Shown here: positions 18,675 through 59,945 of the stretch, piece by piece
How the letters are laid out: the number at the start of each line of letters is the position of its first letter
How positions within the stretch are numbered: the first letter of the stretch is position 1
NCBI GenBank assembly: GCA_013287585.1
Contig: JABDDN010000005.1
Span: 1-64,000, forward strand
Source: Nitrososphaerota archaeon
Lineage (GTDB): Archaea > Thermoproteota > Nitrososphaeria > Nitrososphaerales > Nitrosopumilaceae
DNA length: 64,000 nt
Direction of reading: 5' to 3'
Translations under genes and position numbers: made by a program
Notes under the pieces: model-generated
Databases searched by the model: none
What the model saw: only the letters and a program-made list of their open reading frames with translations
Told to the model about the DNA's origin: nothing

Positions 18675-18687
18675 GCGGGCCCGAAGG
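18675..18687 (+). other. Putative attL (tRNA-Arg 3'-end copy)
   Basis: GCGGGCCCGAAGG is identical to 30109-30121, which covers the last bases of tRNA-Arg(TCT) plus its immediate downstream GC. It sits in otherwise AT-rich intergenic DNA, where a GC-rich 13-mer is unlikely by chance. No remaining tRNA body is present here. Confidence 0.55.
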
Positions 18688-18779
18688 TTCGCGACAAAAC
18701 AGTTTTAGCGCGTCCACCCCCATTTTTTTGAATTTTTAATAACTTATTGTACATTTGTTAGCAGGTATAAAGTTTTGAT

Positions 18780-19529
18780 TTATCCTAGTTCTGAATCTAG
18801 TTCTTGTTGGAAAGCAGAAAATGGCTGGGATCCACCTAATTCCATGTATCCTTTTTTGTCATTTCCTATGAAAAACGTAGGTGTTCCATCAACACCATAT
18901 CTTGATCCGTCCAGTTGATCCTTGTTTATTTTGTCAGCATATTTTCCAGAATCAAGACATGAATTGAAGCTGTTGGCATCAAGTCCCGATTCAGATGCAT
19001 ATTGTTTGAATGTTTTGGCAGCATCTGTAGTACTAAGTTGAGCCCAACTAGTTTGATTTTCAAACAATGTGTTATGATATTCCCAGAATTTGCCCTGTTC
19101 ATTTGCACACTCTGCAGCTATAGCTGCTGCCATTGCATTAGGATGCAAGTTTTCTAGGGGAAAATTTTTGAAAACAAGTCTTACCTTTCCTGATTCGATG
19201 TATCTTTTTTCTACATCCGGTAATGTCTGAGAAAAGAACTCACCACAGAAAGGACATTGAAAATCCGAAAATTCGATCATTGTAACAGGCGCATTAGGAT
19301 TTCCCATGACAGGACTGTCACCTATGGAAATAGCAATTCTTGTTTGGGTGGATGGTTGAGTTGGAGTCTGTGTCGGTATTGGTTGATAAGTATTTTGTGT
19401 CGTGGTTTTTGTTTCCCCCAAATTCCCAATGACATATCCACCAAGAAAGGCTGCAATAACTAGTGCTGAAGCTATTCCAATAATTAGTTTGTTAAAAGTT
19501 GATTTCTTTATTGTAATATCTCCAGACAT
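18780..19529 (-). CDS. DsbA-like thiol oxidoreductase, membrane-anchored
   Basis: The 249-residue protein has an N-terminal membrane helix (about 14-36), a Thr/Gln/Pro-rich linker (about 40-63) and a thioredoxin fold with the active site CPFC (Cys92-Cys95) and the cis-proline loop GVDGTPTFFIG near 214-224. The helical insertion with LHPNAMAAAIAAECANEQGKF is typical of DsbA/DSBA-like oxidoreductases. It should form or rearrange disulfides outside the membrane. The next gene inside the element encodes a secreted cysteine-rich protein, a plausible client. Such genes are common on thaumarchaeal chromosomes, so cargo status is inferred from position only. Confidence 0.88.
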   Translation of the reverse strand: MSGDITIKKSTFNKLIIGIASALVIAAFLGGYVIGNLGETKTTTQNTYQPIPTQTPTQPSTQTRIAISIGDSPVMGNPNAPVTMIEFSDFQCPFCGEFFSQTLPDVEKRYIESGKVRLVFKNFPLENLHPNAMAAAIAAECANEQGKFWEYHNTLFENQTSWAQLSTTDAAKTFKQYASESGLDANSFNSCLDSGKYADKINKDQLDGSRYGVDGTPTFFIGNDKKGYMELGGSQPFSAFQQELDSELG

Positions 19530-19633
19530 TATTAAGTATCCGCCTTATTTCACTGTGTTACATTTAAGTGCGTTTGACTTAATTGCATTAATGGATGTGC
19601 AAAAGTGATACTGCACGTCTACAATTTCATATT

Positions 19634-19741
19634 TTAAATCCATATCTTTCCAGCTAGGAATTCTTCGGTAAAAATGTTTTCTACATAATTCACGATAAGA
19701 AGAACCTTTTCAGCTTCTGTATTCGCTTGATTGAGACAGTT
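19634..19741 (-). pseudogene. Possible 3' coding remnant
   Basis: On this strand an open stretch of about 36 codons ends at TAA (19634-19636) and reads NQANTEAEKVLLIVNYVENI followed by FTEEFLAGKIWI. It has no start codon and a TAG closes it upstream. The amino-acid make-up is protein-like, but the family is unknown and chance is possible. The rest of the 283-base gap (19530-19812) shows nothing. Confidence 0.15.
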
Positions 19742-19812
19742 TTTGAGGCAAGTTTTCTAATCTTGAAGACAAATATCAAAACTCTAACCATGGATTGTTA
19801 ATGCACAGATCA

Positions 19813-21483
19813 TTAACAAATACCACATCTTGTGCAGCAATCAGGATCTGGAAGACCTGATTCTGCCCTATATTGACATATGTGGATACTCATAGCTGAA
19901 CAATTCCCATTACCACCCCCACCTCCTCCACCGCCACCTCCTTCTGGCGTATTCCAACATTTCCCGTCTGAGTGGTAATACGGATAATCACCACCACACT
20001 TGTGACATTTGCCGTCTGATTGATAATAATACGGATAAGCGGAATCAAAACATGGCGTCTTCCAGCATTGTCCATTGTGAGAGTATGGATAGCCAGCATT
20101 TGACCCTACACCGCATTGTGGCCCGTTATAGCATTTCCCGTCTGATTGAGAATAATACGGATAATCACCACCACACTTGTGACATTTGCCGTCTGATTGA
20201 GAATAGTATGGATAAGCGGAATCAAAACATGGCGTCTTCCAGCATTGTCCATTGTGAGAGTATGGATAGCCAGCATTTGACCCTACACCGCATTGTGGCC
20301 CGTTATAGCATTTCCCGTCTGATTGAGAATAATACGGATAATCACCACCACACTTGTGACATTTGCCGTCTGATTGAGAATAGTATGGATAAGCGGAATC
20401 AAAACATGGCGTCTTCCAGCATTGTCCATTGTGAGAGTATGGATAGCCAGCATTTGACCCTACACCGCATTGTGGCCCGTTATAGCATTTCCCGTCTGAT
20501 TGAGAATAATACGGATAATCACCACCACACTTGTGACATTTGCCGTCTGATTGAGAATAGTATGGATAATCGCTACTGCACTGAGGCTGATTTTGAATGA
20601 GAGCCGATGCCACATAGTTGATGACATCTTGGTTGCATTCAAGGTCAGTATGAGAGAGTTGGAGAAATAGATGAGTACGACCAGGAAGCCCATCTCCGAG
20701 AGCACTTGAAATAGGAATCATCCCATCATTTGGTTGACCGTTGAAAAACATAGCTGATTCGCCTGGAAAAAATGGCTTTTCTCCTACAATCTTAATAAAA
20801 TTAGTATTATCATGTTTATTAATTATCGAGTGCTTTATAGAATACAGTAAAGAACTACCTGGTTGAAGCTCTTCGAGCACCCCATTATCCTTCATTTTTT
20901 GGAGATCATCGGCTTTAGCTGAAAGACCTGCTGGAACTGCCATTGAAATTAATTTAGTCAAAAAAGATCCCGTGATTGGAGTTCCATCAATAGGACCACC
21001 CAAGAGTACCATGTTGTTAACATGTAGAGATGTTTTGAGTGCTGCATCCATGGAAACAACAGTGCCCATACTATGGGCCTCAATATCTACATGTGCTCCA
21101 GAATTCTGTAGCCGATCTAGAAAACTGGCTAAAGCATCTCCACTATGTTCTATACTTTTAGTATAATCATAGTTGAATCCAACTACTCTGTCATAATGTC
21201 CTCTGTTCATAATATCGTTTATACAACTCATCCCATTGCTGTCTCTGAAAGCACCGTCAACATTGCTAAAAATACCATGGACTAAGACAAGAGTTTTTTT
21301 GTCATTGCCCAACTGAAAGCTTTCAGGAAGAGAAATAAATTTTTGACCGTCCCACAATACGGGACCATAATTCGTTGATGTTTGAGCAGATACATGAATT
21401 ACATGAAAAGGCAATATCAAAGCAGGAAAATTTAACATTAAAATCAATACAGTACAAAGAGCAACCTTCCCAACCCAGCCCAT
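19813..21483 (-). CDS. Secreted alpha/beta-hydrolase (lipase-like) with tandem cysteine-rich repeats
   Basis: The 556-residue protein starts with a signal peptide (about 1-34, VSA). An alpha/beta-hydrolase domain follows (about 38-300), with LVLVHGIFSNVDGAF for the oxyanion region and nucleophile Ser138 in EAHSMGT, as in triacylglycerol-lipase or PGAP1-like esterases. Residues 300-510 are repeats of YPYYSQSDGKC type, arranged in a 59-residue unit that occurs about three times with near-identical DNA. A glycine run of nine or ten and a final Cys-rich tail (CCTRCGIC) follow. The repeats hold many Cys and Tyr residues and probably form disulfide-linked binding modules. The real substrate is unknown. 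Confidence 0.8.
   Translation of the reverse strand: MGWVGKVALCTVLILMLNFPALILPFHVIHVSAQTSTNYGPVLWDGQKFISLPESFQLGNDKKTLVLVHGIFSNVDGAFRDSNGMSCINDIMNRGHYDRVVGFNYDYTKSIEHSGDALASFLDRLQNSGAHVDIEAHSMGTVVSMDAALKTSLHVNNMVLLGGPIDGTPITGSFLTKLISMAVPAGLSAKADDLQKMKDNGVLEELQPGSSLLYSIKHSIINKHDNTNFIKIVGEKPFFPGESAMFFNGQPNDGMIPISSALGDGLPGRTHLFLQLSHTDLECNQDVINYVASALIQNQPQCSSDYPYYSQSDGKCHKCGGDYPYYSQSDGKCYNGPQCGVGSNAGYPYSHNGQCWKTPCFDSAYPYYSQSDGKCHKCGGDYPYYSQSDGKCYNGPQCGVGSNAGYPYSHNGQCWKTPCFDSAYPYYSQSDGKCHKCGGDYPYYSQSDGKCYNGPQCGVGSNAGYPYSHNGQCWKTPCFDSAYPYYYQSDGKCHKCGGDYPYYHSDGKCWNTPEGGGGGGGGGGNGNCSAMSIHICQYRAESGLPDPDCCTRCGIC
19975..20575. repeat. 177-bp tandem repeat coding the Cys/Tyr-rich modules
   Basis: Landmarks such as CCGCATTGTGGCCCG recur at 20111, 20288 and 20465, giving an exact 177-base period (59 codons) with partial units at both ends. 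Copies are almost identical at DNA level, which implies recent duplication or gene conversion. Frames on the other strand through this region are by-products of the repeat. Confidence 0.85.
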
Positions 21484-21610
21484 TTTCTATGCTATATTTG
21501 TTACAATATTAAAAGATGATCTTATATTCTAAAAAAACTATCAAAATTTTATATATTTTAGAATTTTAGTTGTAAATTTTTATTAAATGTCTACAGGAGT
21601 AAATTGAATT

Positions 21611-21820
21611 ATGTATTGTAGCATATGTCACAGAGACTCATCTACTGATTTCAAGAAATGTCCAAATTGTGGACATCCTTCAAAAAAGGCAAAAATTATT
21701 TCAATTTTAAAAAATATCGTTCGACGTGGTGATAGTTTTCATCTTTGTTGCACTCTATGTTGGAGTCCTGTAAGACTCGCTACAAAACTCCTTCCAATGT
21801 TTTATTTTCGGTCTACTTGA
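21611..21820 (+). CDS. Small zinc-ribbon protein whose 3' end runs into a dispersed repeat
   Basis: The 69-residue frame begins MYCSICHRDS and has CxxC pairs at CSIC (3-6) and CPNC (17-20), a typical zinc ribbon, followed by a Lys/Ile-rich helix. From about residue 51 the codons are part of the dispersed 30-base repeat (21763-21792), so the C-terminus (SPVRLATKLL onward) is probably not native. It may be a zinc-ribbon gene truncated by the repeat. The upstream region is AT-rich. Function unknown. Confidence 0.4.
   Translation: MYCSICHRDSSTDFKKCPNCGHPSKKAKIISILKNIVRRGDSFHLCCTLCWSPVRLATKLLPMFYFRST
21763..21792 (+). repeat. Dispersed hairpin-like repeat, copy 1
   Basis: GAGTC-CTGTAA-GACTC forms a perfect 5-bp stem with a 6-base loop, followed by GCTACAAAACTCC and a T-rich stretch. 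It is related to four other copies at 23428, 24130, 24723 and 25578, all on the + strand. Confidence 0.75.
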
Positions 21821-21871
21821 TAATTCCAGCTTGGCTCATGTATTTGAGTACGTTTTCAAACTCTGTCTGAC

Positions 21872-22984
21872 TTAGTTATTAATGATTCTAAGTGATGAAA
21901 ATAAATCGTTAGTTGTCATTATATTCTCAAAGTCTTTTTGCAAATGATTTTCTACATACTCTTGTGCATGGTTGAATATCCATGTCGGATTTTGTATTTT
22001 TTTGTCAAAATCACCAATGGAGTAATAAAGACGATTGAATCCTTCTGTATCTAAAGAATCCCTCTTGACAACTAAATATGTTGGTTCAGAATCCTCTGCT
22101 GGGATGATTTGTACGTTAAAATCATTATTAGATAAATGAAAAATTTGCAATGGCGGTTGTATCACAATGCCATTTGTTCCTCTATCAAGAAATTGTTTAA
22201 TCAGATCTTGAGGATCAGTAACAAAGCTAACATGCCCATGCGAGAGTTTGTCAGCCGCATGATAACGATGAACACTTCCTTTGAGAACACTAATTTCTCT
22301 TCCACTTTCATAACCTCTTGATAAGAATACGAGTGGAGAATACCACTTACCCAGAATAATTTTTTCATTACTAAAGTTAGGTTCTGTTTTTAACATTTCA
22401 GATAATCTGCTGTGAACAATGGAGGCCATTCCTATTTTGTCCTCTTCAAATAATTCTAGTTCGTAGCTACTGTTTTTGTGCTGATCCTTTATTTGTTCTA
22501 TGGCTCCAACATTTCCTAGAAGACTTTTCTCTAGATCATGCAATTGTGTTTGATATTGTTCTCCGAACCTCAATACCTCTTGTTTTTTTGTCCTTCTCTT
22601 TGATATGCTCTTTCTACCTCTCAAAATGACCTCTCTGAGTTCTGGTTTAATTGAATCAAGGCTTTTTCTAGTTTGAAATGGTGTGAATCTATATGGCGCC
22701 TTAACAAAACTTTCATATGTTTTTAAAACACGAATTCCTTTTTCTGTGATTCTAGATTTTTTAGATCCTCTTTTCATTTTTCCTTGTTCAGATTCATACA
22801 TCTCAGAAAAGGTTTTGTTTCCGTGCACTAGGCCTTGTCGATGTAGACTAATGATGGTAGATACTGTGGTATTGTAATTATACCCATGACCTGCTGCTGA
22901 AATTTGTTCGAGCTGATTTTTATCTGGATTTTCGTATTGGAAACGAAGTATCTCTATTTCAGCACGGCGAAATCTTTTCTCCAT
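21872..22984 (-). CDS. Winged-helix-like protein of unknown function, C-terminus shortened
   Basis: The 370-residue soluble protein opens with an HTH-like region (about 5-95: RAEIEILRFQYENP, then TTVSTIISLHRQGLVHG and KKSRITEKGIRVLKTY), which suggests DNA binding. A coiled, charged middle follows (about 95-180), and then an alpha/beta part with KIILGKWYSPLVFLSRGYE and FVTDPQDLIKQFL. The family of the C-terminal part is not recognised. After the stop, another frame continues with LSQTEFENVLKYMSQAGIIK and a stop at 21813. One missing base near 21872 would therefore explain a lost 20-residue tail. Confidence 0.55.
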   Translation of the reverse strand: MEKRFRRAEIEILRFQYENPDKNQLEQISAAGHGYNYNTTVSTIISLHRQGLVHGNKTFSEMYESEQGKMKRGSKKSRITEKGIRVLKTYESFVKAPYRFTPFQTRKSLDSIKPELREVILRGRKSISKRRTKKQEVLRFGEQYQTQLHDLEKSLLGNVGAIEQIKDQHKNSSYELELFEEDKIGMASIVHSRLSEMLKTEPNFSNEKIILGKWYSPLVFLSRGYESGREISVLKGSVHRYHAADKLSHGHVSFVTDPQDLIKQFLDRGTNGIVIQPPLQIFHLSNNDFNVQIIPAEDSEPTYLVVKRDSLDTEGFNRLYYSIGDFDKKIQNPTWIFNHAQEYVENHLQKDFENIMTTNDLFSSLRIINN

Positions 22985-23086
22985 TAAATATAGTACGGCA
23001 TTTTAGTATTTATTGGGATCTAGAGCTCGACCTAGATCGGTCAAATCTAGGGCGTTAATTAATTATACTTCCATGTAAGTTGAACT

Positions 23087-23365
23087 ATGAAGTTCATACA
23101 TTTGATACTCACTGTCGTATCGCTGGCTTCTGGTATTGGTGTTGCGAATGCATATCATCAAGACATTGTTTTCGCAATACTTTCGCCCATGCTTGTGGCA
23201 ACATTTACTCACTTCCTAAACAATCATCAAAAATACTTGTCAAAAAAGAGTCATAAGAAATCAAAGAAAAAAGGCAAAAGATTCCTAAATAAGCAAGCAT
23301 GGGCATCAGTTCTTAACTTCATTCTCATATTGAACCAGAAACTGAGAGGATTTGTTTTGCCATAA
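23087..23365 (+). CDS. Small membrane protein with lysine-rich loop
   Basis: The 92-residue protein has an N-terminal hydrophobic segment (about 4-22, signal-like), a second at about 27-44, a strongly basic KKSHKKSKKKGKR stretch at about 54-66 and a short hydrophobic C-terminus. The topology suggests a membrane protein with a cytoplasmic basic segment. A copy of the dispersed repeat lies 62 bases after its stop. Function unknown. Confidence 0.45.
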   Translation: MKFIHLILTVVSLASGIGVANAYHQDIVFAILSPMLVATFTHFLNNHQKYLSKKSHKKSKKKGKRFLNKQAWASVLNFILILNQKLRGFVLP

Positions 23366-23427
23366 TATTACACATATCACTACAAAAATAATCTTGAACA
23401 AATCATTATCACAAGTGGAAAAGGTTC

Positions 23428-23456
23428 GAGTCCTGTAAGGCGCGTTACAAAACTTC
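23428..23456 (+). repeat. Dispersed hairpin-like repeat, copy 2
   Basis: GAGTCCTGTAAGGCGCGTTACAAAACTTC follows AAAAGGTTC and is followed by T-rich sequence. The stem is imperfect here. The flanking GGTTCG plus CG..ACAAAAC is also present, in shorter form, at the left end of the element (18686-18700). Confidence 0.7.
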
Positions 23457-23575
23457 TATTCAATTTTTCTAAAACCTCTTTTAGGATGAATTTGATGTGA
23501 TGTTTAACAGTAGATAGCACAGCATGAAGTGAATTTTATCAAAACCCCGATATACCAATCACGTATACGCATGTT

Positions 23576-24085
23576 ATGAGGCAGGCCATTGATAATCCTA
23601 TATGGATTACGATAACGGACAAATCAATGCTAATTATGATTTTGCGCTCCTACCGCGATGAGGACAAGAGTAAAATTCTTGAGGTAGCAACAAGACCAAA
23701 AACTATCCCTGAAATTGTTGATGAATCCAAGTTATCTAAAACTTTGACATATCGAAAAGTACATTCATTATTACGAGATTATCTCTTGTTTCCAGCTGGT
23801 CATACCCTAATGAAAAATCAAAAACTGGTAACAAAATATGTTGCGCTGTTTGAGAAACTCGAGATCAACACAGTAAAAAATGATATATCAGTCAGAGCAA
23901 AAATCAATAAAGACAGTCCTAGTATTTTTTTCAAGATGGTAGGTGACAAGGTAGGTTCTACACTCGAAGAAAAAATCATTAGGAAAATTAAACATTCCCA
24001 AAACGAGCAAGAGACGATCAGACGCCTAGTAAAACATATTGAAAAAAGTGGTTTGAAGAAGGTAAAATTAACTAAAAGAAATTAA
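23576..24085 (+). CDS. Winged-helix transcriptional regulator (ArsR-like fold)
   Basis: The 169-residue protein (a later Met near residue 19 or 21 may be the true start) carries a compact winged-helix: KSKILEVATRPKTIPEIVDE, SKLSKTLTYRKVHSLLRDYLL and a wing-like LFPAGHTLMKNQKLVTKYV. Many such single-domain regulators occur in thaumarchaea. The basic C-terminal 60 residues look helical. It probably controls element or neighbouring genes, but no target is visible. A dispersed repeat copy lies 44 bases after its stop. Confidence 0.62.
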   Translation: MRQAIDNPIWITITDKSMLIMILRSYRDEDKSKILEVATRPKTIPEIVDESKLSKTLTYRKVHSLLRDYLLFPAGHTLMKNQKLVTKYVALFEKLEINTVKNDISVRAKINKDSPSIFFKMVGDKVGSTLEEKIIRKIKHSQNEQETIRRLVKHIEKSGLKKVKLTKRN

Positions 24086-24129
24086 TCATAACAAATGTTC
24101 GGCCTTTCACCACCTAAAACCAATGGTTA

Positions 24130-24150
24130 GAGTCCTGTAAGACTCGTTAC
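24130..24150 (+). repeat. Dispersed hairpin-like repeat, copy 3
   Basis: GAGTCCTGTAAGACTCGTTAC with a perfect GAGTC/GACTC stem, then TATTTTTGTC. It lies just downstream of the winged-helix gene. Confidence 0.7.
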
Positions 24151-24257
24151 TATTTTTGTCGTTGTACGGTACGGTTTCTTAATCAATATGTTGTTTTTAG
24201 GTAGTGTTCTATATGTAGGACATGGTTCTTCGTGTTTTTTGTCGAGACATGGACAGA

Positions 24258-24527
24258 TTAAGATTCCATAATTTTAAAAAAATCAAACATGTCTTTTTCG
24301 TTAACTAGTTCTTCACCTAATTGCAATTTGACATCGTTTATTATGGAATTGTAATCTTCCTTGTACACATTTTTGAGTACAGTTCTCAAATATTCTGGAT
24401 GTTTATAAGAATCCCTAATATGAAGATTGTAAAGAGAGCTAAGTTTAGCTTGTACTAAATGACGTTTGGTATCTCCTTTTCTTATTAAGACTGACTCTAT
24501 TACTGCTCGCAAGGCAATTAGGGGCAT
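24258..24527 (-). CDS. Small soluble protein of unknown function
   Basis: The 89-residue frame from ATG 24527 is mostly helical (RAVIESVLIRKGDTKRHLVQ; YLRTVLKNVYKEDYNSII; ELVNEKDMFDFFKIM). Upstream codons stay open for about 19 more residues (PEKKPHVYEFTWEKHE) but offer no ATG, GTG or TTG, so the N-terminus may be truncated. It is the only minus-strand gene between repeat copies 3 and 4. Not recognised. Confidence 0.4.
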   Translation of the reverse strand: MPLIALRAVIESVLIRKGDTKRHLVQAKLSSLYNLHIRDSYKHPEYLRTVLKNVYKEDYNSIINDVKLQLGEELVNEKDMFDFFKIMES

Positions 24528-24722
24528 TTCGTGTTTCTCCCATGTGAACTCATAAACATGCGGTTTCTTTTCAGGTAGTTAACTATTTCCACATGTGGTT
24601 ACAGATTTTATTATAATATCATAAAAGAACAAAATTACGATGCTTGTTTTTTATCACTTGCATTTTGAATCAATACTTTCTATTCTAGTTCAGACTATAA
24701 CATGTCTGAACCCACTGAAGGT

Positions 24723-24740
24723 GAGTCCTGTAAGGCTCGT
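24723..24740 (+). repeat. Dispersed hairpin-like repeat, copy 4
   Basis: GAGTCCTGTAAGGCTCGT has a stem with one G-T pair. The 3' ACAAAAC part is lost. It lies 80 bases before the PEFG-CTERM-like gene, in a 275-base gap that otherwise shows nothing clear. Confidence 0.6.
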
Positions 24741-24802
24741 GCATGATTTGTTGGAAAGCGATTAAACCCAAAATGTTTTTGAGTTTTGAAATGCCTTAAG
24801 AT

Positions 24803-25588
24803 ATGATGTCTTTTTCCTTGAAAGCATTATTTTTTGGAATTGTTGTGTTTTCAATAGTTCTGACAATGCATTCAGTATTCGCTGACACTTGGTACGAAGG
24901 CAAAGGATTGAAACAAGGAGATTACTTCAGATACAGTGTTTGCTTTACTGACTGGCATAACTGTACTCCTATAGAGCTTGACTTTTGGATTCAGAATAAA
25001 ACTAGTGATGACAGTGGTTATAATGTACAGTTTCTTGCTATTGATGGAAGCAATATACAAAAAGGTCATACAGTATTTGGAATGATAACACCAGACCCAG
25101 AACACTCTGATCCAAATATTGCTGATTATACCTATGTTTACAAAAGCACCATAAACTTGCTTGGTAATATTGCAACATCTGAAAGTCCAATGGACTTTAA
25201 TTCTCCAACATGGTATCACCATGGAATAGTTGGAAATGGAGTGGGACCAATGAGTCAAGAACAAGTAACTGTTCAAGCAGGTACATACAATGCATGGATT
25301 ATTGGTTGGCACAAAGGTGTTGATAACAAAATCTGGGTAGTACCAAATCTTCCTTTTCCAATAAAAGCAGCAACATACATTGATTGTGCGTGTGGTAAAC
25401 CACCACCTCTTTTTACTTTCGAATTGTTAGAAATGAAAAATAGTCCATATTCACCGATTAATCAAACTTCAACAGAACCAGCGCATTCTGCTTTACCTGA
25501 GTTTGGTTCTCTTGCAGGAATGATTATCGTATTATCAATAATTGGCGTTGTTTTAATTTCTAGAAAATTCAACTATCGAGTCATGTAA
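24803..25588 (+). CDS. Secreted protein with PEFG-CTERM-like sorting signal
   Basis: The 261-residue protein has an N-terminal signal peptide (about 6-27, ending VFA), an extracellular beta-rich domain with several Trp and Cys residues (YSVCFTDWHNCTPIELDFW; a CACGK pair near 199) and a C-terminal tripartite signal. That signal is PEFGSLAG at about 233-240, a hydrophobic helix, then RKFNYRVM. It matches the thaumarchaeal PEFG-CTERM pattern, a proposed substrate for archaeosortase processing and surface attachment. The last codons and stop are provided by a dispersed repeat copy. Function of the outer domain unknown. Confidence 0.72.
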   Translation: MMSFSLKALFFGIVVFSIVLTMHSVFADTWYEGKGLKQGDYFRYSVCFTDWHNCTPIELDFWIQNKTSDDSGYNVQFLAIDGSNIQKGHTVFGMITPDPEHSDPNIADYTYVYKSTINLLGNIATSESPMDFNSPTWYHHGIVGNGVGPMSQEQVTVQAGTYNAWIIGWHKGVDNKIWVVPNLPFPIKAATYIDCACGKPPPLFTFELLEMKNSPYSPINQTSTEPAHSALPEFGSLAGMIIVLSIIGVVLISRKFNYRVM

Positions 25589-25606
25589 GACCCGTTACAA
25601 AACTCC
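25578..25606 (+). repeat. Dispersed hairpin-like repeat, copy 5
   Basis: GAGTCATGTAAGACCCGTTACAAAACTCC overlaps the stop codon of the PEFG-CTERM-like gene and is followed by TTTCTCAATTTTTTATTTTAATT. The hairpin has one mismatched pair. Confidence 0.7.
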
Positions 25607-25711
25607 TTTCTCAATTTTTTATTTTAATTAACAGCAAACGAGTTTATCGATAAAGAATAAAAATGGTTTACCCCCAACTTTACTCGTAGAAACATGCTGT
25701 TGTCGTAAAAG

Positions 25712-26284
25712 TTATAGTTTAAAGTAGATCAAAATTAAACCTGCAATTATAGCACCAGCAATTGCAATTATTAACTGATACAAATATTTTTTAAAAAATT
25801 TCATGTATCTATTTGATGACTCGTCATTTTGTAATTGTTTTAATGTTGTTTCTATTATTTTTGAGGATTCTATTAAGTTAGAATTCGTCACATCGAATTT
25901 AAAATCATTAATTAGTTTATAAAATACTGCGGTTATTCCTTCTGCCCAAACTTGATCTTCTGATTCACTAGATATTCTAAAATTCGTTTTCTTATCACAG
26001 TCGAAACCAATTGTTAACGACATATCCTCTAATAATAACATAAAAAAACATCTACCTTTTTTAAATTCAAAATGTTCAAGAAACTTTTCTATTGAAGATT
26101 CAGAAATTGTTTCAGATTCTGCCCCAAACTTAAATGTTAAAGATCCCAAATTAAATGACTTGCTATCAAGGTTTGCTATTTTTCGTTGTTTAGAATATTC
26201 CTCTGACATCTCTTTTCCTATGGTTGAAATTAATTCGATCGAGAATTGCTTAGTTATCTCTTTGGTACTAACATGTTTCTTCAT
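25712..26284 (-). CDS. Tail-anchored protein of unknown function
   Basis: The 190-residue protein is soluble and charged for about 165 residues, then ends in a single membrane helix (LYQLIIAIAGAIIAGLILIYF). There is no signal peptide, so it is likely held at the inner face by its C-terminus. The central part alternates strands (SKSFNLGSLTFKFGAES; FFMLLLEDMSLTIGFDC). The family is not recognised; roadblock-like folds are one possibility but unsupported. Confidence 0.5.
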   Translation of the reverse strand: MKKHVSTKEITKQFSIELISTIGKEMSEEYSKQRKIANLDSKSFNLGSLTFKFGAESETISESSIEKFLEHFEFKKGRCFFMLLLEDMSLTIGFDCDKKTNFRISSESEDQVWAEGITAVFYKLINDFKFDVTNSNLIESSKIIETTLKQLQNDESSNRYMKFFKKYLYQLIIAIAGAIIAGLILIYFKL

Positions 26285-26529
26285 AGTTATTGTTCTAGAC
26301 TTAATTTTGACATAAATATGTGCTTGTAATAATTCTGTAGGTTTTTATTTTACTGGATAATTTTTCATATTTTTGTAATGTTATAGATCCGAAAACATAC
26401 CTTTCTACTTCACATGATAACTATAATTTCAATGTCAAAACTAGTTCTTTTTGTCTAAATAACCCTCAGTTCTTCTCTTATGGATTCTCCTAAAGTCCAT
26501 GTTTTCTATATCATTAACTATTAGCTTCT

Positions 26530-26555
26530 GATCGATGATCGATCAATATTATATG
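26530..26555 (+). promoter_or_regulatory. Near-palindrome and TATA-like box before the 26.6-kb membrane gene
   Basis: TGATCGATGATCGATCA-type sequence (about 26529-26545) abuts AATATTATAT. The TATA-like part is 20-40 bases upstream of the possible starts at 26566, 26575 and 26587. The palindrome could be an operator. The remaining 281-base gap (26285-26565) is AT-rich and shows nothing else. Confidence 0.35.
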
Positions 26556-26565
26556 CAACTTTGCT

Positions 26566-26922
26566 GTGTATACAGTGACCACAAGTATGTCATACATTGC
26601 AGTTGGTGTAGGCATTTTTGGAATAATACTTACAGCTTGTGTTCTTTTGTATGTAAACAGCATAGTGAATCCCGTAATCAATACGGCTACAGACCGAATG
26701 GAGACTAGTCTAAAACCAATAACTAACCAAGTACCACAGGGAAATAATCTGATACAAGCAGGAAAACAGTTGGATACAGCACAATCACAAGTTGAGGATC
26801 TAAACCACGTAAAAGAAGCAGCTAATACAGGAGTGTTGAAAAATACGTGGTCTTTCGGAACACCTTTGATGATTGTTGTTGCCGCAATTGCAGCAATATT
26901 TGCCAAACTTCGCTCAGGATGA
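26566..26922 (+). CDS. Small membrane protein with two helices and polar middle
   Basis: The frame gives up to 118 residues. GTG 26566, GTG 26575 and ATG 26587 are all possible starts, and TATA spacing favours the latter two. It has a membrane helix (IAVGVGIFGIILTACVLLYV, about 11-30), a Gln/Asn/Asp-rich helical middle (about 35-95) and a C-terminal helix (TPLMIVVAAIAAIFA). A minus-strand frame of similar length overlaps it but lacks this organisation. Function unknown; a holin-like role is conceivable but unsupported. Confidence 0.5.
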   Translation: MYTVTTSMSYIAVGVGIFGIILTACVLLYVNSIVNPVINTATDRMETSLKPITNQVPQGNNLIQAGKQLDTAQSQVEDLNHVKEAANTGVLKNTWSFGTPLMIVVAAIAAIFAKLRSG

Positions 26923-26980
26923 GACAACACTACAGACAGAAAAATTTATTGAATGTACTGATAACTTGACAGAATCAAAA

Positions 26981-27664
26981 TCAATGTTGGTAATTAGGTT
27001 GAATGCTATGACTTTGAAGATAAGGTAAGAATCTTTTATCTACGCTTATCAAATCGGATGCAAAACTTTCGTATAGAGTACTATTGATACCCGTACCATC
27101 TTTGTAGTAGATGTATTGCCCAACAGTGTGTACTTTAAGCCAATTATCCGAATCAAGAACATTTGCCCTATGATATGTTGGCAAATCTCTTTGACAGACA
27201 TCAGCTATGTGATGTAGAATGAATAAACCTCCAATCATATTAATTATATTTTCAAAAGTCGCTTGAAAAATCCCTACTGGCATTTTATGTTTTATTTTAT
27301 TATATGCCTGCCACCATTTTGGATTGTTATTAGGAAAGGGACGATAAACTACTTTTGATCCTGACAAAATAACACCTTGAGAAGAGAGTAATGAGTTAAC
27401 ATTTAATGCCTTATAGTAGGAAGGAAATTCATCACTACAAGTAACGCCTGTTTGTTGTTTTATTATTTCAAACATTCCTAGTATTTGTGGACCAAGATAT
27501 AGAGACAAATTAACAAGTTTTGGAGAATAAATGTCTAAAGGATTACGATTAAACGGAATTATTTCATTGAATTGAAGAAATTCATATTCGGAGTTATGAT
27601 ATTGTCGTTGCATCTCAATTAGATCTGTTGTTAAAATACTGTTTGGATCTTTATATGGTCCCAT
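26981..27664 (-). CDS. Soluble protein of unknown function, possibly HEPN-like
   Basis: The 227-residue protein has no signal or membrane helix. A central WWQAYNKIKHKMP (about 117-129), followed by ATFENIINMIGGLFILHHIADV, resembles the W-x-x-YNxxKH pattern seen in several all-helical HEPN-like families, some of which act in defence or toxin systems. The canonical RxxxxH RNase motif is not clearly present, so this is weak. Its place near the integrase in an integrated element is compatible with an accessory defence role. Confidence 0.5.
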   Translation of the reverse strand: MGPYKDPNSILTTDLIEMQRQYHNSEYEFLQFNEIIPFNRNPLDIYSPKLVNLSLYLGPQILGMFEIIKQQTGVTCSDEFPSYYKALNVNSLLSSQGVILSGSKVVYRPFPNNNPKWWQAYNKIKHKMPVGIFQATFENIINMIGGLFILHHIADVCQRDLPTYHRANVLDSDNWLKVHTVGQYIYYKDGTGINSTLYESFASDLISVDKRFLPYLQSHSIQPNYQH

Positions 27665-27716
27665 GATTAATTTTTACTTGCATTTTGAATTAAGGTTATC
27701 CATTTGTTATCTTCTT

Positions 27717-28001
27717 CTATTCTGAACAATAAGGACAAGATACTTCATCAGTCTCTTTTTTGATAAGCCACGGAAATTTACGACCACATTCCAGACAAAT
27801 CATAACTCTTCTCTTCCAGAGCCTTGTACGGTAATAAGGAATCATAAATCTAGATATTTTTCTAAATCGAAGTTTTCCTTCTTCAGTTAAAAAATAAATT
27901 CCAAGTACTGATTTTGCGCCTTTTATCCCACGATTTCTAGGATCTTTATAGTGAGTCCTTGCGTGATTGTATCTTTTTGCTATTGAAATTACGTACTCCA
28001 T
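27717..28001 (-). CDS. Small basic protein with C-terminal zinc ribbon
   Basis: The 94-residue protein is basic and winged-helix-like at first (ISIAKRYNHARTHYKDPRNRG; GIYFLTEEGKLRFRKISRFM), and ends with CLECGRKF and CPYC, a Cys4 zinc ribbon at about 69-92. The combination suggests nucleic-acid binding. It is in line with the HEPN-like gene on the same strand, 52 bases apart. No family name can be given. Confidence 0.5.
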   Translation of the reverse strand: MEYVISIAKRYNHARTHYKDPRNRGIKGAKSVLGIYFLTEEGKLRFRKISRFMIPYYRTRLWKRRVMICLECGRKFPWLIKKETDEVSCPYCSE

Positions 28002-28076
28002 TGAGCTATCACTGAGCTATCAGATTTTTGTTATTTTTGCAAATAATAAAGACAGATTATGACGTTGGTATTGATT

Positions 28077-28478
28077 TTAGAGCCTTGTACTTGATCTTCC
28101 TCTCTTTCTAGGAAGTTTTTTTCTGCCTTTTTTCCTGTTTTTAACAAAGACATTGTCAAAATGTGAAAATATCTTGTCTCTACCAGCAGTTAATTTTTCA
28201 TATTCAGAGTCTCGTTGTTCCTTTGGAAATTCTTTCAAGACTTGCTTAATTTCAGCATTCATGAGTCTATTGTATTTTTTGACAATTCTTGTTATTTTTT
28301 TAAGAATTTTGCTGTCTGAGGCGGTATACAATTCCCCTCCAGCAATCAATCTGCTAAGAAATTCAATGCCAGTTTTAAGAGAATAATTATAATTCCAACC
28401 ATATTCATCATGCAAAATATCAAGAATCCTTTTTTCTTCTGATGTGAATCTTGCTCTAACAGTATGCCATTCTGTCAT
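28077..28478 (-). CDS. Basic protein of unknown function, divergent from the AbrB-integrase genes
   Basis: The 133-residue protein starts MTEWHTVRARFTSEEKRILD, with an N-terminal pattern like small DNA-binding or plasmid-accessory proteins, followed by helices (YGWNYNYSLKTGIEFLSRLI). It ends in a strongly basic tail (KNRKKGRKKLPRKRGRSS). It is transcribed divergently from the AbrB-like gene across a gap of about 50 bases, so the two may share a control region. A DNA-binding role in element maintenance is inferred from charge and position. Confidence 0.5.
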   Translation of the reverse strand: MTEWHTVRARFTSEEKRILDILHDEYGWNYNYSLKTGIEFLSRLIAGGELYTASDSKILKKITRIVKKYNRLMNAEIKQVLKEFPKEQRDSEYEKLTAGRDKIFSHFDNVFVKNRKKGRKKLPRKRGRSSTRL

Positions 28479-28529
28479 GAAAACTTGTCTACAAATTTAG
28501 ATATTAATTTTCGTCTATACTATGATTCT

Positions 28530-28748
28530 GTGAGTCAAAATACAAAAAACAGGGAATTAGATCTTGGAACAAGGAAAATCTCACGTATGAATTTCAGCTA
28601 TATTGTAACAATTCCCAAGATTTTTGTACAAAATGCGCTGAATGGAGAAACCGCGAAGATAGTAAGAATGACCATGTTGGAAGATGGATCTCTAAAGATT
28701 ACACCAATCCGAGAAAAAACCGAACCTGCTGATCTTGTCATAATGTGA
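28530..28748 (+). CDS. SpoVT/AbrB-like DNA-binding protein
   Basis: From GTG 28530 the product is about 72 residues, with RKISRMNFSYIVTIPKIFVQ as the swapped-hairpin AbrB core and a following strand pair (TAKIVRMTMLEDGSLKITPI). Such small dimers act as transition-state regulators or antitoxins. Upstream in-frame sequence to 28464 overlaps the divergent gene's start and is likely untranslated. A TATTTAGATATT-like box about 30 bases before the GTG fits a leaderless start. Four bases separate its stop from the integrase ATG, so it probably forms an operon with it and may regulate it. Confidence 0.62.
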   Translation: MSQNTKNRELDLGTRKISRMNFSYIVTIPKIFVQNALNGETAKIVRMTMLEDGSLKITPIREKTEPADLVIM

Positions 28749-28752
28749 TTAC

Positions 28753-30030
28753 ATGAAAAGAGTAAATACTACAAATCCACTTGCATTTTCAGATGAGGAC
28801 CGCAGAGCTGTGCGGTCTGATGCGGGAAAAAAATTGACATACAACGACACAATCCATAAGGCACAAACCGTTCGAAAGAGTCCAACAAAGAAAGAAAGAC
28901 TGCTAGCCGATCCAGACGTAAGAAGATGGTACAAAAATGTAGCAAGAGGTAGTCCAAATTCAGCCGAAATAAACCTAAGAAGGCTGAGCAAATTCTGCGA
29001 GGATCATCAAATCACACCGATGCAAGTTGCAGAATTGGGAATCAAAGACATCAGGGAAATAACAGATCTTCTACAAGACCACATATCATGGATGGAAAGC
29101 AGAGGCAATGCTCCACAATACATCAAGGGAACCATAACTGCGGTAAAGTCATGGCTGCATCATTTTGATGTCTTCATAAAAAGAAGAATCAAGATAGCAA
29201 ATGTAGACTCGACACCAACTTTAGAAAAAGAGAGAGTGCCACAAGGAAACGAACTTGCAGAACTTTTCAGCAGGGCAAATCTCAGGGCTGGTGCCATAAT
29301 GTCACTGATTGGCAAAGCTGGTCTAAGACCTGAAGTGATGGGAAACTATAACGCGACAGACGGGCTGATGATAAAGGATCTACCTGAACTTGTCCTAAAA
29401 GAAGGTCTGGCTACATTTGCAAGCAAACAGCCAAGAATCGTGGTAAGAAAGACACTCTCAAAAGCAGATCACGAATACTATACCTTCCTGACAGACTTTG
29501 GAACAAAGAGGCTGTTAGCCTATCTAAATGAGAGGCTAATTTCGGGAGAATCGCTAATGCCTGAATCTCCAGTCATAGCGCCCTTCACAAGGTATGGCAG
29601 ACATAGAGGAGAGAACATTGGCAAAAGATTTGTGGAGACATTGACAATCCGCAGGGAAATCCACAAAACAATGCGACCAAGATTTCTGTGGAGACCGTAT
29701 GTGCTAAGAGCTTTCTTTGACACGCAACTACTCATCGCAGAATCTCGTGGAAAGATTGCACATGACTTTCGTGTATTCTTTATGGGACACAAGGGAAACA
29801 TGGAAGCAAAGTACACAACCAACAAGGGAATTCTTCCAGACTCGCTCATTGATGAAATGAGAAATGCATTTAGTCGAAGTGAAGAATTTCTTGATCTGGA
29901 AAAAGGCGAAGTTCCTCCACTTGAAAAACAAAAAGAAGAAACAAAAGAAAAACTTGGAAATCTAACACAAGAAGAAATGGATCTGTTGCAAAAATTGTTA
30001 CAGAAAATTGGCGACAAGAAAACAGAATAA
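28753..30030 (+). CDS. Tyrosine recombinase / integrase
   Basis: The 425-residue protein has an N-terminal SAM-like core-binding domain (about 60-160) and a C-terminal catalytic domain. The likely catalytic residues are Arg in KAGLRPEVMG (about 195), Arg in RPYVLRAFFDTQL, His in FFMGHKGNMEAKY and the nucleophile Tyr in AKYTTNK. The last 40 residues are Glu/Lys-rich. It is the archaeal chromosomal-integrase type that inserts elements into tRNA genes, here 78 bases from tRNA-Arg(TCT). By eye its sequence is richer in GC than its neighbours, which fits acquired DNA. It follows the AbrB-like gene by four bases. Confidence 0.9.
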   Translation: MKRVNTTNPLAFSDEDRRAVRSDAGKKLTYNDTIHKAQTVRKSPTKKERLLADPDVRRWYKNVARGSPNSAEINLRRLSKFCEDHQITPMQVAELGIKDIREITDLLQDHISWMESRGNAPQYIKGTITAVKSWLHHFDVFIKRRIKIANVDSTPTLEKERVPQGNELAELFSRANLRAGAIMSLIGKAGLRPEVMGNYNATDGLMIKDLPELVLKEGLATFASKQPRIVVRKTLSKADHEYYTFLTDFGTKRLLAYLNERLISGESLMPESPVIAPFTRYGRHRGENIGKRFVETLTIRREIHKTMRPRFLWRPYVLRAFFDTQLLIAESRGKIAHDFRVFFMGHKGNMEAKYTTNKGILPDSLIDEMRNAFSRSEEFLDLEKGEVPPLEKQKEETKEKLGNLTQEEMDLLQKLLQKIGDKKTE

Positions 30031-30108
30031 ATAACACAGAATCAAAATGTTGTACATCTCGAACGGAAAATAGTTGACAAAACGACAGGACGCGTTAATA
30101 CAGATAAA

Positions 30109-30121
30109 GCGGGCCCGAAGG
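30109..30121 (+). other. Putative attR at the tRNA-Arg(TCT) 3' end
   Basis: GCGGGCCCGAAGG comprises the final acceptor strand of the minus-strand tRNA plus two adjacent bases. It is identical to 18675-18687. Just inside it lie GGACGCG (30088-30094) and GACAAAAC (30076-30083), which have counterparts inside the left end. Confidence 0.55.
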
Positions 30122-30184
30122 GCTTCGATCCCTTGACCACTGGATTAGAAGTCCAGTGCTCTGTCCAAGCTGAGCTACGGGCCC
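30110..30184 (-). tRNA. tRNA-Arg (anticodon TCT)
   Basis: The reverse strand has acceptor GGGCCCG/CGGGCCC, a D-arm GCTC..GAGC, the anticodon stem CTGGA/TCCAG with loop CTTCTAA (anticodon TCT, reads AGA), and the T-arm AGGG-ATCGAAG-CCCT. No intron; CCA not encoded. It is intact despite serving as the likely integration site, because the element carries in a copy of the 3' end. Confidence 0.94.
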
Positions 30185-59276: not shown

Positions 59277-59945
59277 CTATTTTGTTGGTTTCTTCTCCGC
59301 CGGTTTTGCAGCTGCTGGTTTAGAATCTTTTGCTGGAGCTGCTGCGCCACCCTTTGCTGGAGCTGCTGGAGCTGCTGCGCCACCCTTTGCTGGAGCTGCT
59401 GGAGCTGCTGCGCCACCCTTTGCTGGAGCTGCTGCGCCTTCTGCTGGAGCTGCTGCGCCTTCTGGAACTGCACCAGGTGGAAGAACCTTGCCTCCCTTAC
59501 GAACTCCTACTGCACCACCCTTTCTTCCGGTAGTGCGTGTCCTCTGACCTCTAACCTTTAATCCATAAGTATGACGAAAACCTCTCCAACTGTTTGTATT
59601 TTTTTCCCGCTCGATATCATTTCTAACATTAAATTCTATATCTGAAGTAATCAAGTGCAAGTTTTCTCCAGAATCCATATCCTTTCGTCTATTTAGAAAC
59701 CATGAAGGTACATTAATTGATGATGGATTTTTCATTACCTTTTCTATTTCCTCTACTTGAGATTCGGTGAGAAATCCTATATTGCTATTCTGGTCTATCT
59801 TAAGAACATCTAAGATTGCTTTGGCAAAGTTGTACCCTATTCCTCTTACTTGACTTACCCCTATGATCATTTTTTTTGCTCCAGGAACGTCTTTTCCTGC
59901 AATCCTAACAATATGTCTGTATTCTTGTGAAGACAAGTAAAACAA
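59277..59945 (-). CDS. rps13: 30S ribosomal protein uS13 with Ala/Pro-rich repeated tail
   Basis: The 222-residue protein has the usual uS13 body: [31 protein letters not shown], then [13 protein letters not shown] and [22 protein letters not shown] (about 123-144). Residues from about 150 to 222 are an unusual tail built of [11 protein letters not shown]-like 11-residue units, encoded by a 33-base repeat, ending in a Lys/Ala-rich segment. The tail should extend from the 30S head. An internal start is possible, but the ATG at 59945 is conventional. It precedes rps4 on the same strand. Confidence 0.92.
59333..59465. repeat. 33-bp repeats in the rps13 tail
   Basis: GGAGCTGCTGCGCCACCCTTTGCT-type units recur at a 33-base period with partial copies at each end, coding the [11 protein letters not shown] modules. 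Other-strand frames here are low-complexity by-products. Confidence 0.8.

Follow-up and report, generated by a model that had tools for sequence, protein, structure and literature searches.

A repeat-bearing secreted hydrolase beside a DsbA-like gene on an integrated element of a Nitrosopumilaceae archaeon

The window analyzed here, a 64,000-nucleotide stretch of archaeal DNA, contains an integrated mobile element that carries a gene for an exported α/β-hydrolase with an array of near-identical cysteine- and tyrosine-rich repeats, next to a gene for a DsbA-like thiol oxidoreductase (Table 1). We consider it about an even call that the hydrolase is a surface-held, secreted serine esterase or lipase-like enzyme with a disulfide-hairpin arm and the neighbouring DsbA as its oxidant, carried as cargo of a tRNA-Arg element in a Nitrosopumilaceae host. 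The eleven hairpin modules of the arm, each probably closed by one disulfide, would form a stack with exposed aromatic residues, which probably keeps the enzyme attached to a surface or polymer such as the cell envelope, exopolysaccharide or particles. The array would grow in length by unequal exchange of its 177-bp unit, and the membrane-anchored DsbA encoded next door would probably make the ∼15 disulfides outside the cell.

Table 1. Coordinates of the element, the repeat hydrolase and associated features in the window.
Feature	Position	Strand	Basis
Integrated mobile element, cryptic integrated element type, ∼11.4 kb, in tRNA-Arg(TCT) 3′ end	18675..30121	.	
att repeat GCGGGCCCGAAGG, 13 bp, tRNA-distal element end	18675..18687	+	
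att repeat GCGGGCCCGAAGG, 13 bp, 3′ end of tRNA-Arg	30109..30121	+	
tRNA-Arg (TCT), integration target	30109..30184	-	ARAGORN
Tyrosine-recombinase-like integrase, 425 aa, beside tRNA	28753..30030	+	phrog_1, motifs by eye, position
DsbA-like membrane-anchored thiol oxidoreductase, CPFC site, 249 aa	18780..19529	-	Pfam, alignment; anchor by eye
Secreted lipase-like hydrolase with repeat arm, 556 aa	19813..21483	-	ORF translation, Pfam
Signal peptide, residues 1–34	21382..21483	-	by eye, ends VSAQ
α/β-hydrolase domain, residues 35–301, triad S138/D253/H278	20581..21381	-	DUF7379, DUF900, alignment
Array of 11 two-Cys modules, residues 302–509	19957..20580	-	TRF, sequence, AlphaFold2
177-bp unit 1	20395..20571	-	
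177-bp unit 2, identical to unit 3	20218..20394	-	
177-bp unit 3	20041..20217	-	
Unit 4, partial, diverged, two modules	19957..20040	-	
Gly10 run	19912..19941	-	sequence
C-terminal tail with 6 Cys, 32 residues, after Gly10 run	19816..19911	-	sequence
Cargo gene, 370 aa, winged-helix-like N-terminus (by eye), no family match	21872..22984	-	
Exported PEFG-CTERM surface protein, 261 aa, cargo	24803..25588	+	TIGR04296, 26.5 bits vs cut-off 25

An integrated element in a tRNA-Arg gene

The order cytochrome b, cupredoxin, o133, tRNA-Arg and ogg is found as an empty site in two genomes of the same genus (G043 and G057) and in G003, a less close relative; in the window, ∼11.4 kb separates o133 from tRNA-Arg. 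When the flanks of the element are joined, they match G057 without interruption over 227 nt (91.6%) and G043 at 85%. The location of the hydrolase on a mobile element, suspected in the original prediction, is therefore borne out by the att repeats that bound the element and by the empty sites in relatives. Genes for a Rieske protein, cytochrome b, a cupredoxin and the PEFG-CTERM protein in the window point to an ammonia-oxidizing archaeon.

The integrase matches phrog_1 weakly (20.5 bits), and its motifs GLRPE, YVLRAFF and GHKGNMEAKYT were recognized by eye. It found no match among viral contigs, and its matches to TAL effectors were short-stretch noise. At the same tRNA-Arg site, the sister genome G005 of the same genus holds a different element with a 97% identical integrase gene and other cargo, which includes neither the hydrolase nor the DsbA. 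That element (L052, 1640-9000), given its unrelated cargo, marks the site as a cargo-exchange hot spot. A conserved sequence of the GGGGTGGACACGCTAAAACTGTTTTGGCGC type lies just inside the att end, at 600-660 of L055 and at 18675-18730 of the window, and perhaps represents integrase arm sites. Scans of cargo proteins against Pfam or PHROGs turned up no capsid, conjugation or casposon genes, and scans for bacterial promoters and terminators gave hits at chance level only. Elsewhere in the window, at 59331-59464, tandem repeats of 33 bp and 21 bp lie inside an ORF on the minus strand (59277-59945).

The hydrolase and its repeat arm

From the N to the C terminus, the protein consists of a signal peptide, an α/β-hydrolase domain (DUF7379), the repeat array, a glycine run and a Cys-rich tail. 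The hydrolase domain matches DUF7379 (PF24096) at 35.3 bits against a curated cut-off of 33, with residues 65–171 covering only profile positions 1–118 of 191, and DUF900 (PF05990) at 23.3 bits against a cut-off of 20.5. Together with the signal peptide recognized by eye, these matches uphold the secreted α/β-hydrolase that had been proposed. S138 and D253 are invariant across 21 sequences, namely the repeat hydrolase and 20 relatives from the same order; H278, located in SHTDL, pairs by eye with the CHxNL of the relatives after gap correction. The strand and helix order of the AlphaFold2 model, which is poor (pLDDT 51), fits an α/β-hydrolase, and its best fold matches are α/β hydrolases, none at E≤0.001.

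When 300 genomes of the phylum were searched directly, only the hydrolase itself was matched, relatives being reached only via the Pfam profile, which indicates that the protein is a divergent DUF7379 member. No relative of the whole protein was found in the genome-contig and viral-contig collections or, by tblastn, among plasmids and phages, and a sequence search of the PDB gave nothing meaningful. DUF7379 proteins occur in 32 of the 380 genomes of the order by Pfam profile search, and the N-termini of the 20 aligned relatives are export-signal-like. An exported protein of G078 with a 57% identical leader was rejected as a relative because the likeness is confined to that leader and the proteins are unrelated; a plus-strand ORF at 20052-20600 is a shadow of the 177-bp repeat.

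Tandem Repeats Finder assigns the array a period of 177, with 3.5 copies and 98% matches. Unit 1 differs from units 2 and 3 by one base in 177, and the longest exact self-match at a shift of 177 is 360 nt, far above chance. The original prediction of near-identical 177-base Cys/Tyr units in about three copies, together with a glycine run (here 10 residues), thus holds, and the near-identity of the units at the DNA level supports the recent expansion that it proposed. Each 59-residue unit is built from three smaller modules of ∼20 residues, giving 11 modules in the whole array. The module follows the pattern C-x3-7-YPY...G-x-C, and each of the 11 YPY cores is flanked by two cysteines. The mature protein has 30 cysteines, 2 in the hydrolase domain, 22 in the array and 6 in the tail, an even number in each. 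The 11-residue core YPYYSQSDGKC, present at two positions per unit, shows 4 synonymous and 0 non-synonymous differences, indicating that its protein sequence was kept while the DNA drifted; the modules thus predate the 177-bp expansion and were constrained at the protein level.

In the structure prediction that had been suggested as a check, AlphaFold2 modeled the first two units as repeated β-hairpins with a moderate mean pLDDT of 69, for which one disulfide per hairpin module would be the simplest reading; the array model found no significant relative among known folds, its weak list being headed by zinc-finger proteins and including R-spondin.

A profile search of 398 genomes of the phylum detected the module in six, which represent three genera of Nitrosopumilaceae. 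Outside the window it is carried by a 348-aa protein, a long surface-like protein, short, coiled-coil-like proteins that end in an Excalibur-like tail, and proteins in which one region resembles, by eye, a staphylococcal-nuclease domain. The related modules have the YPY core in common and keep one Cys pair ∼12–15 residues apart, without CxxC. The array has no family match in Pfam or among PDB sequences and no profile match to EGF, STIG1 or furin-like repeats. Its presence in other secreted proteins, nuclease-like ones with Excalibur included, answers a search that had been proposed; the module is rare as well as unnamed. Because the module is found on exported proteins of different make, it looks like a general extracellular accessory module. 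Two of the loci (L096, 721-1986; L098, 691-1644) encode exported proteins that combine a nuclease-like region (by eye) with YPY hairpins, the former with two Excalibur-like tails.

The neighbouring DsbA and its subgroup

The DsbA-like gene announced beside the hydrolase is real: its product matches Thioredoxin_4 (PF13462) at 126 bits and DSBA (PF01323) at 71.9 bits, and the two genes, 283 bp apart, may or may not be co-transcribed. The relatives of this DsbA comprise one 73% paralogue in the same genome and two others at 65–67%; its nearest relatives in other organisms come from Thaumarchaeota archaeon isolates REEA25 and REEA70. The paralogue lies 80 bp downstream of a gene for a STIG1-like secreted protein with 38 Cys, the pair occupying L090 13979-15762 on contig C8 of G000. 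The two 65–67% relatives are divergent neighbours of long exported proteins that look EGF-like, with NNGGC/CGPCPTGFTGNG repeats and 34 and 42 Cys (loci L088 8481-11330 and L089 9975-13315). All four copies of this subgroup adjoin secreted proteins with a heavy load of Cys, which fall into three unrelated kinds, as against 2 of 86 other DsbA loci, which are not all independent and whose Cys-rich neighbours were tallied by hand from the output of a 90-locus scan (two of the subgroup loci in duplicate, as L059/L111 and L060/L112, plus the 86 others). The window and related DNA, 222 kb in all, contain only five exported Cys-rich ORFs; four adjoin the DsbA genes of the subgroup, and the fifth was included because it carries the module.

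The DsbA tree requires two changes for the label, a value as low being reached in 1 of 500 shuffles, and gives no support for the four loci as a clade. Since the association was noticed and then counted on the same data, and two of the four loci are orthologous, it is a strong lead rather than proof. At the six module loci examined in other genomes there is no DsbA nearby, and DsbA (protein-disulfide isomerase arCOG02868) is known to travel often on the mobile elements of thaumarchaea, the table of Krupovic et al. (PMC6563490) giving it a count of 7. The DsbA therefore goes with a heavy Cys load and not with the YPY module. With that qualification, its proposed role as a helper of the hydrolase is made plausible by the association at all four subgroup loci.

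No family match to VKOR, which like DsbB can be the recycling partner of DsbA, was found in the 77%-complete genome of the window, which has several DsbA genes. A further case of the pairing is seen on a Nitrososphaeraceae contig (L114, 1160-3505), where a 46%-identical DsbA lies beside an exported 473-aa ORF with 20 Cys. Among viral contigs, the window DsbA found one 34% match. No description of a thaumarchaeal DsbA/Cys-rich pairing was found in a library of open-access papers.

Competing explanations and relation to known systems

The repeats could be a mere rigid, protease-resistant stalk or spacer, with a neutral expansion and a copy number of little effect. Unequal exchange readily expands tandem units, and the Gly10 run and Cys-rich tail suggest a linker-type architecture; but the exclusively synonymous drift of the core, and an aromatic YPY motif common to modules on other proteins, go beyond a spacer's needs and make this reading rather unlikely. 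An assembly artefact, with a true copy number different from that in the contig, is unlikely. The genome is a 47-contig draft and the 360-nt exact repeat exceeds short-read length and so is beyond counting by such reads, making three full units the number as assembled; yet the diverged edge unit bounds the array on one side, the single base of unit 1 marks the other, and all units share one frame. Such an error would in any case alter the number of repeats, not their existence.

Binding of zinc or copper by the array cysteines, in place of disulfides, would make the arm a metal-sequestering one. CxxC spacing in some units (GKCHKC), a zinc-ribbon match below its cut-off and the zinc-finger proteins at the top of the non-significant fold list fit this idea, which is nevertheless improbable given the wide Cys spacing without CxxC in related modules, the even Cys count of every segment, and an exported protein with an adjacent DsbA. 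It is more improbable still that the hydrolase serves as a weapon against neighbouring cells, with the element carrying this secreted lipase for the benefit of its host. A secreted hydrolase with an expandable, recognition-like arm among the cargo of a mobile element is what one might expect of a weapon, but no immunity-like partner was identified, no toxin family was matched in Pfam, PHROGs and the other profile libraries used, and the spread of DUF7379 proteins through the order, with export-signal-like N-termini in those aligned, fits scavenging or envelope turnover. We prefer the surface-held exoenzyme with a disulfide-hairpin arm, against which count the poor hydrolase model and moderate array model, the module loci with no DsbA nearby, the missing VKOR match in the 77%-complete genome and the small size of the DsbA subgroup, partly orthologous and lacking clade support.

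The integrated element, the α/β-hydrolase and the DsbA are of known kinds. What is new is a hairpin module that has no name, the recent expansion of this module on the hydrolase, and the recurrent pairing of a DsbA subgroup with unrelated Cys-loaded exoproteins. Few cells in soil and sea are as abundant as ammonia-oxidizing archaea, yet to our knowledge little is known about their use of secreted enzymes or their formation of extracellular disulfides. We tentatively raise the broader possibility, in which our confidence falls short of even, that these archaea carry cassettes of an exoprotein and a private oxidoreductase, in which a small DsbA subgroup accompanies unrelated disulfide-heavy secreted repeat proteins, and that YPY hairpins make up a new family of extracellular modules, which become attached to secreted enzymes of different kinds. 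If so, one transfer would give an archaeon a disulfide-rich surface protein or exoenzyme, and a mobile cassette that joins an exoenzyme and its expandable disulfide arm to an adjoining oxidase would tie mobile elements to surface and nutrient traits. The hydrolase and the DsbA offer a concrete candidate substrate–oxidase pair.

Krupovic et al. (PMC6563490) describe the cryptic integrated elements of thaumarchaea; of 68 elements that were mapped, 39 lie in tRNA genes, and the att median is 17 bp. The window element shares with the cryptic elements the tRNA 3′-end target, a short att, an integrase by the tRNA, mostly unknown cargo and DsbA-type cargo; it adds a secreted repeat hydrolase, the words 'hydrolase' and 'secreted' being absent from the text of that paper. 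The enzyme has the export signal, the G/A-x-S-x-G nucleophile elbow and the triad Asp and His of DUF7379/DUF900 hydrolases, some of which are exported in the same order, whereas it is only 19–27% identical to the order-level DUF7379 members aligned, none of which has a Cys-rich repeat arm. EGF-like, furin/R-spondin and STIG1 repeats resemble the array as extracellular tandem Cys-paired β-hairpins, a structure here predicted, but the YPY module has no sequence match in Pfam or the PDB and its fold matches are not significant. The window DsbA has the CPFC site and N-terminal membrane anchor common among DsbA-like thioredoxin-fold proteins (PF13462, PF01323); it differs from other DsbA proteins in belonging to a four-copy subgroup, 65–73% identical, that always lies beside Cys-rich secreted proteins.
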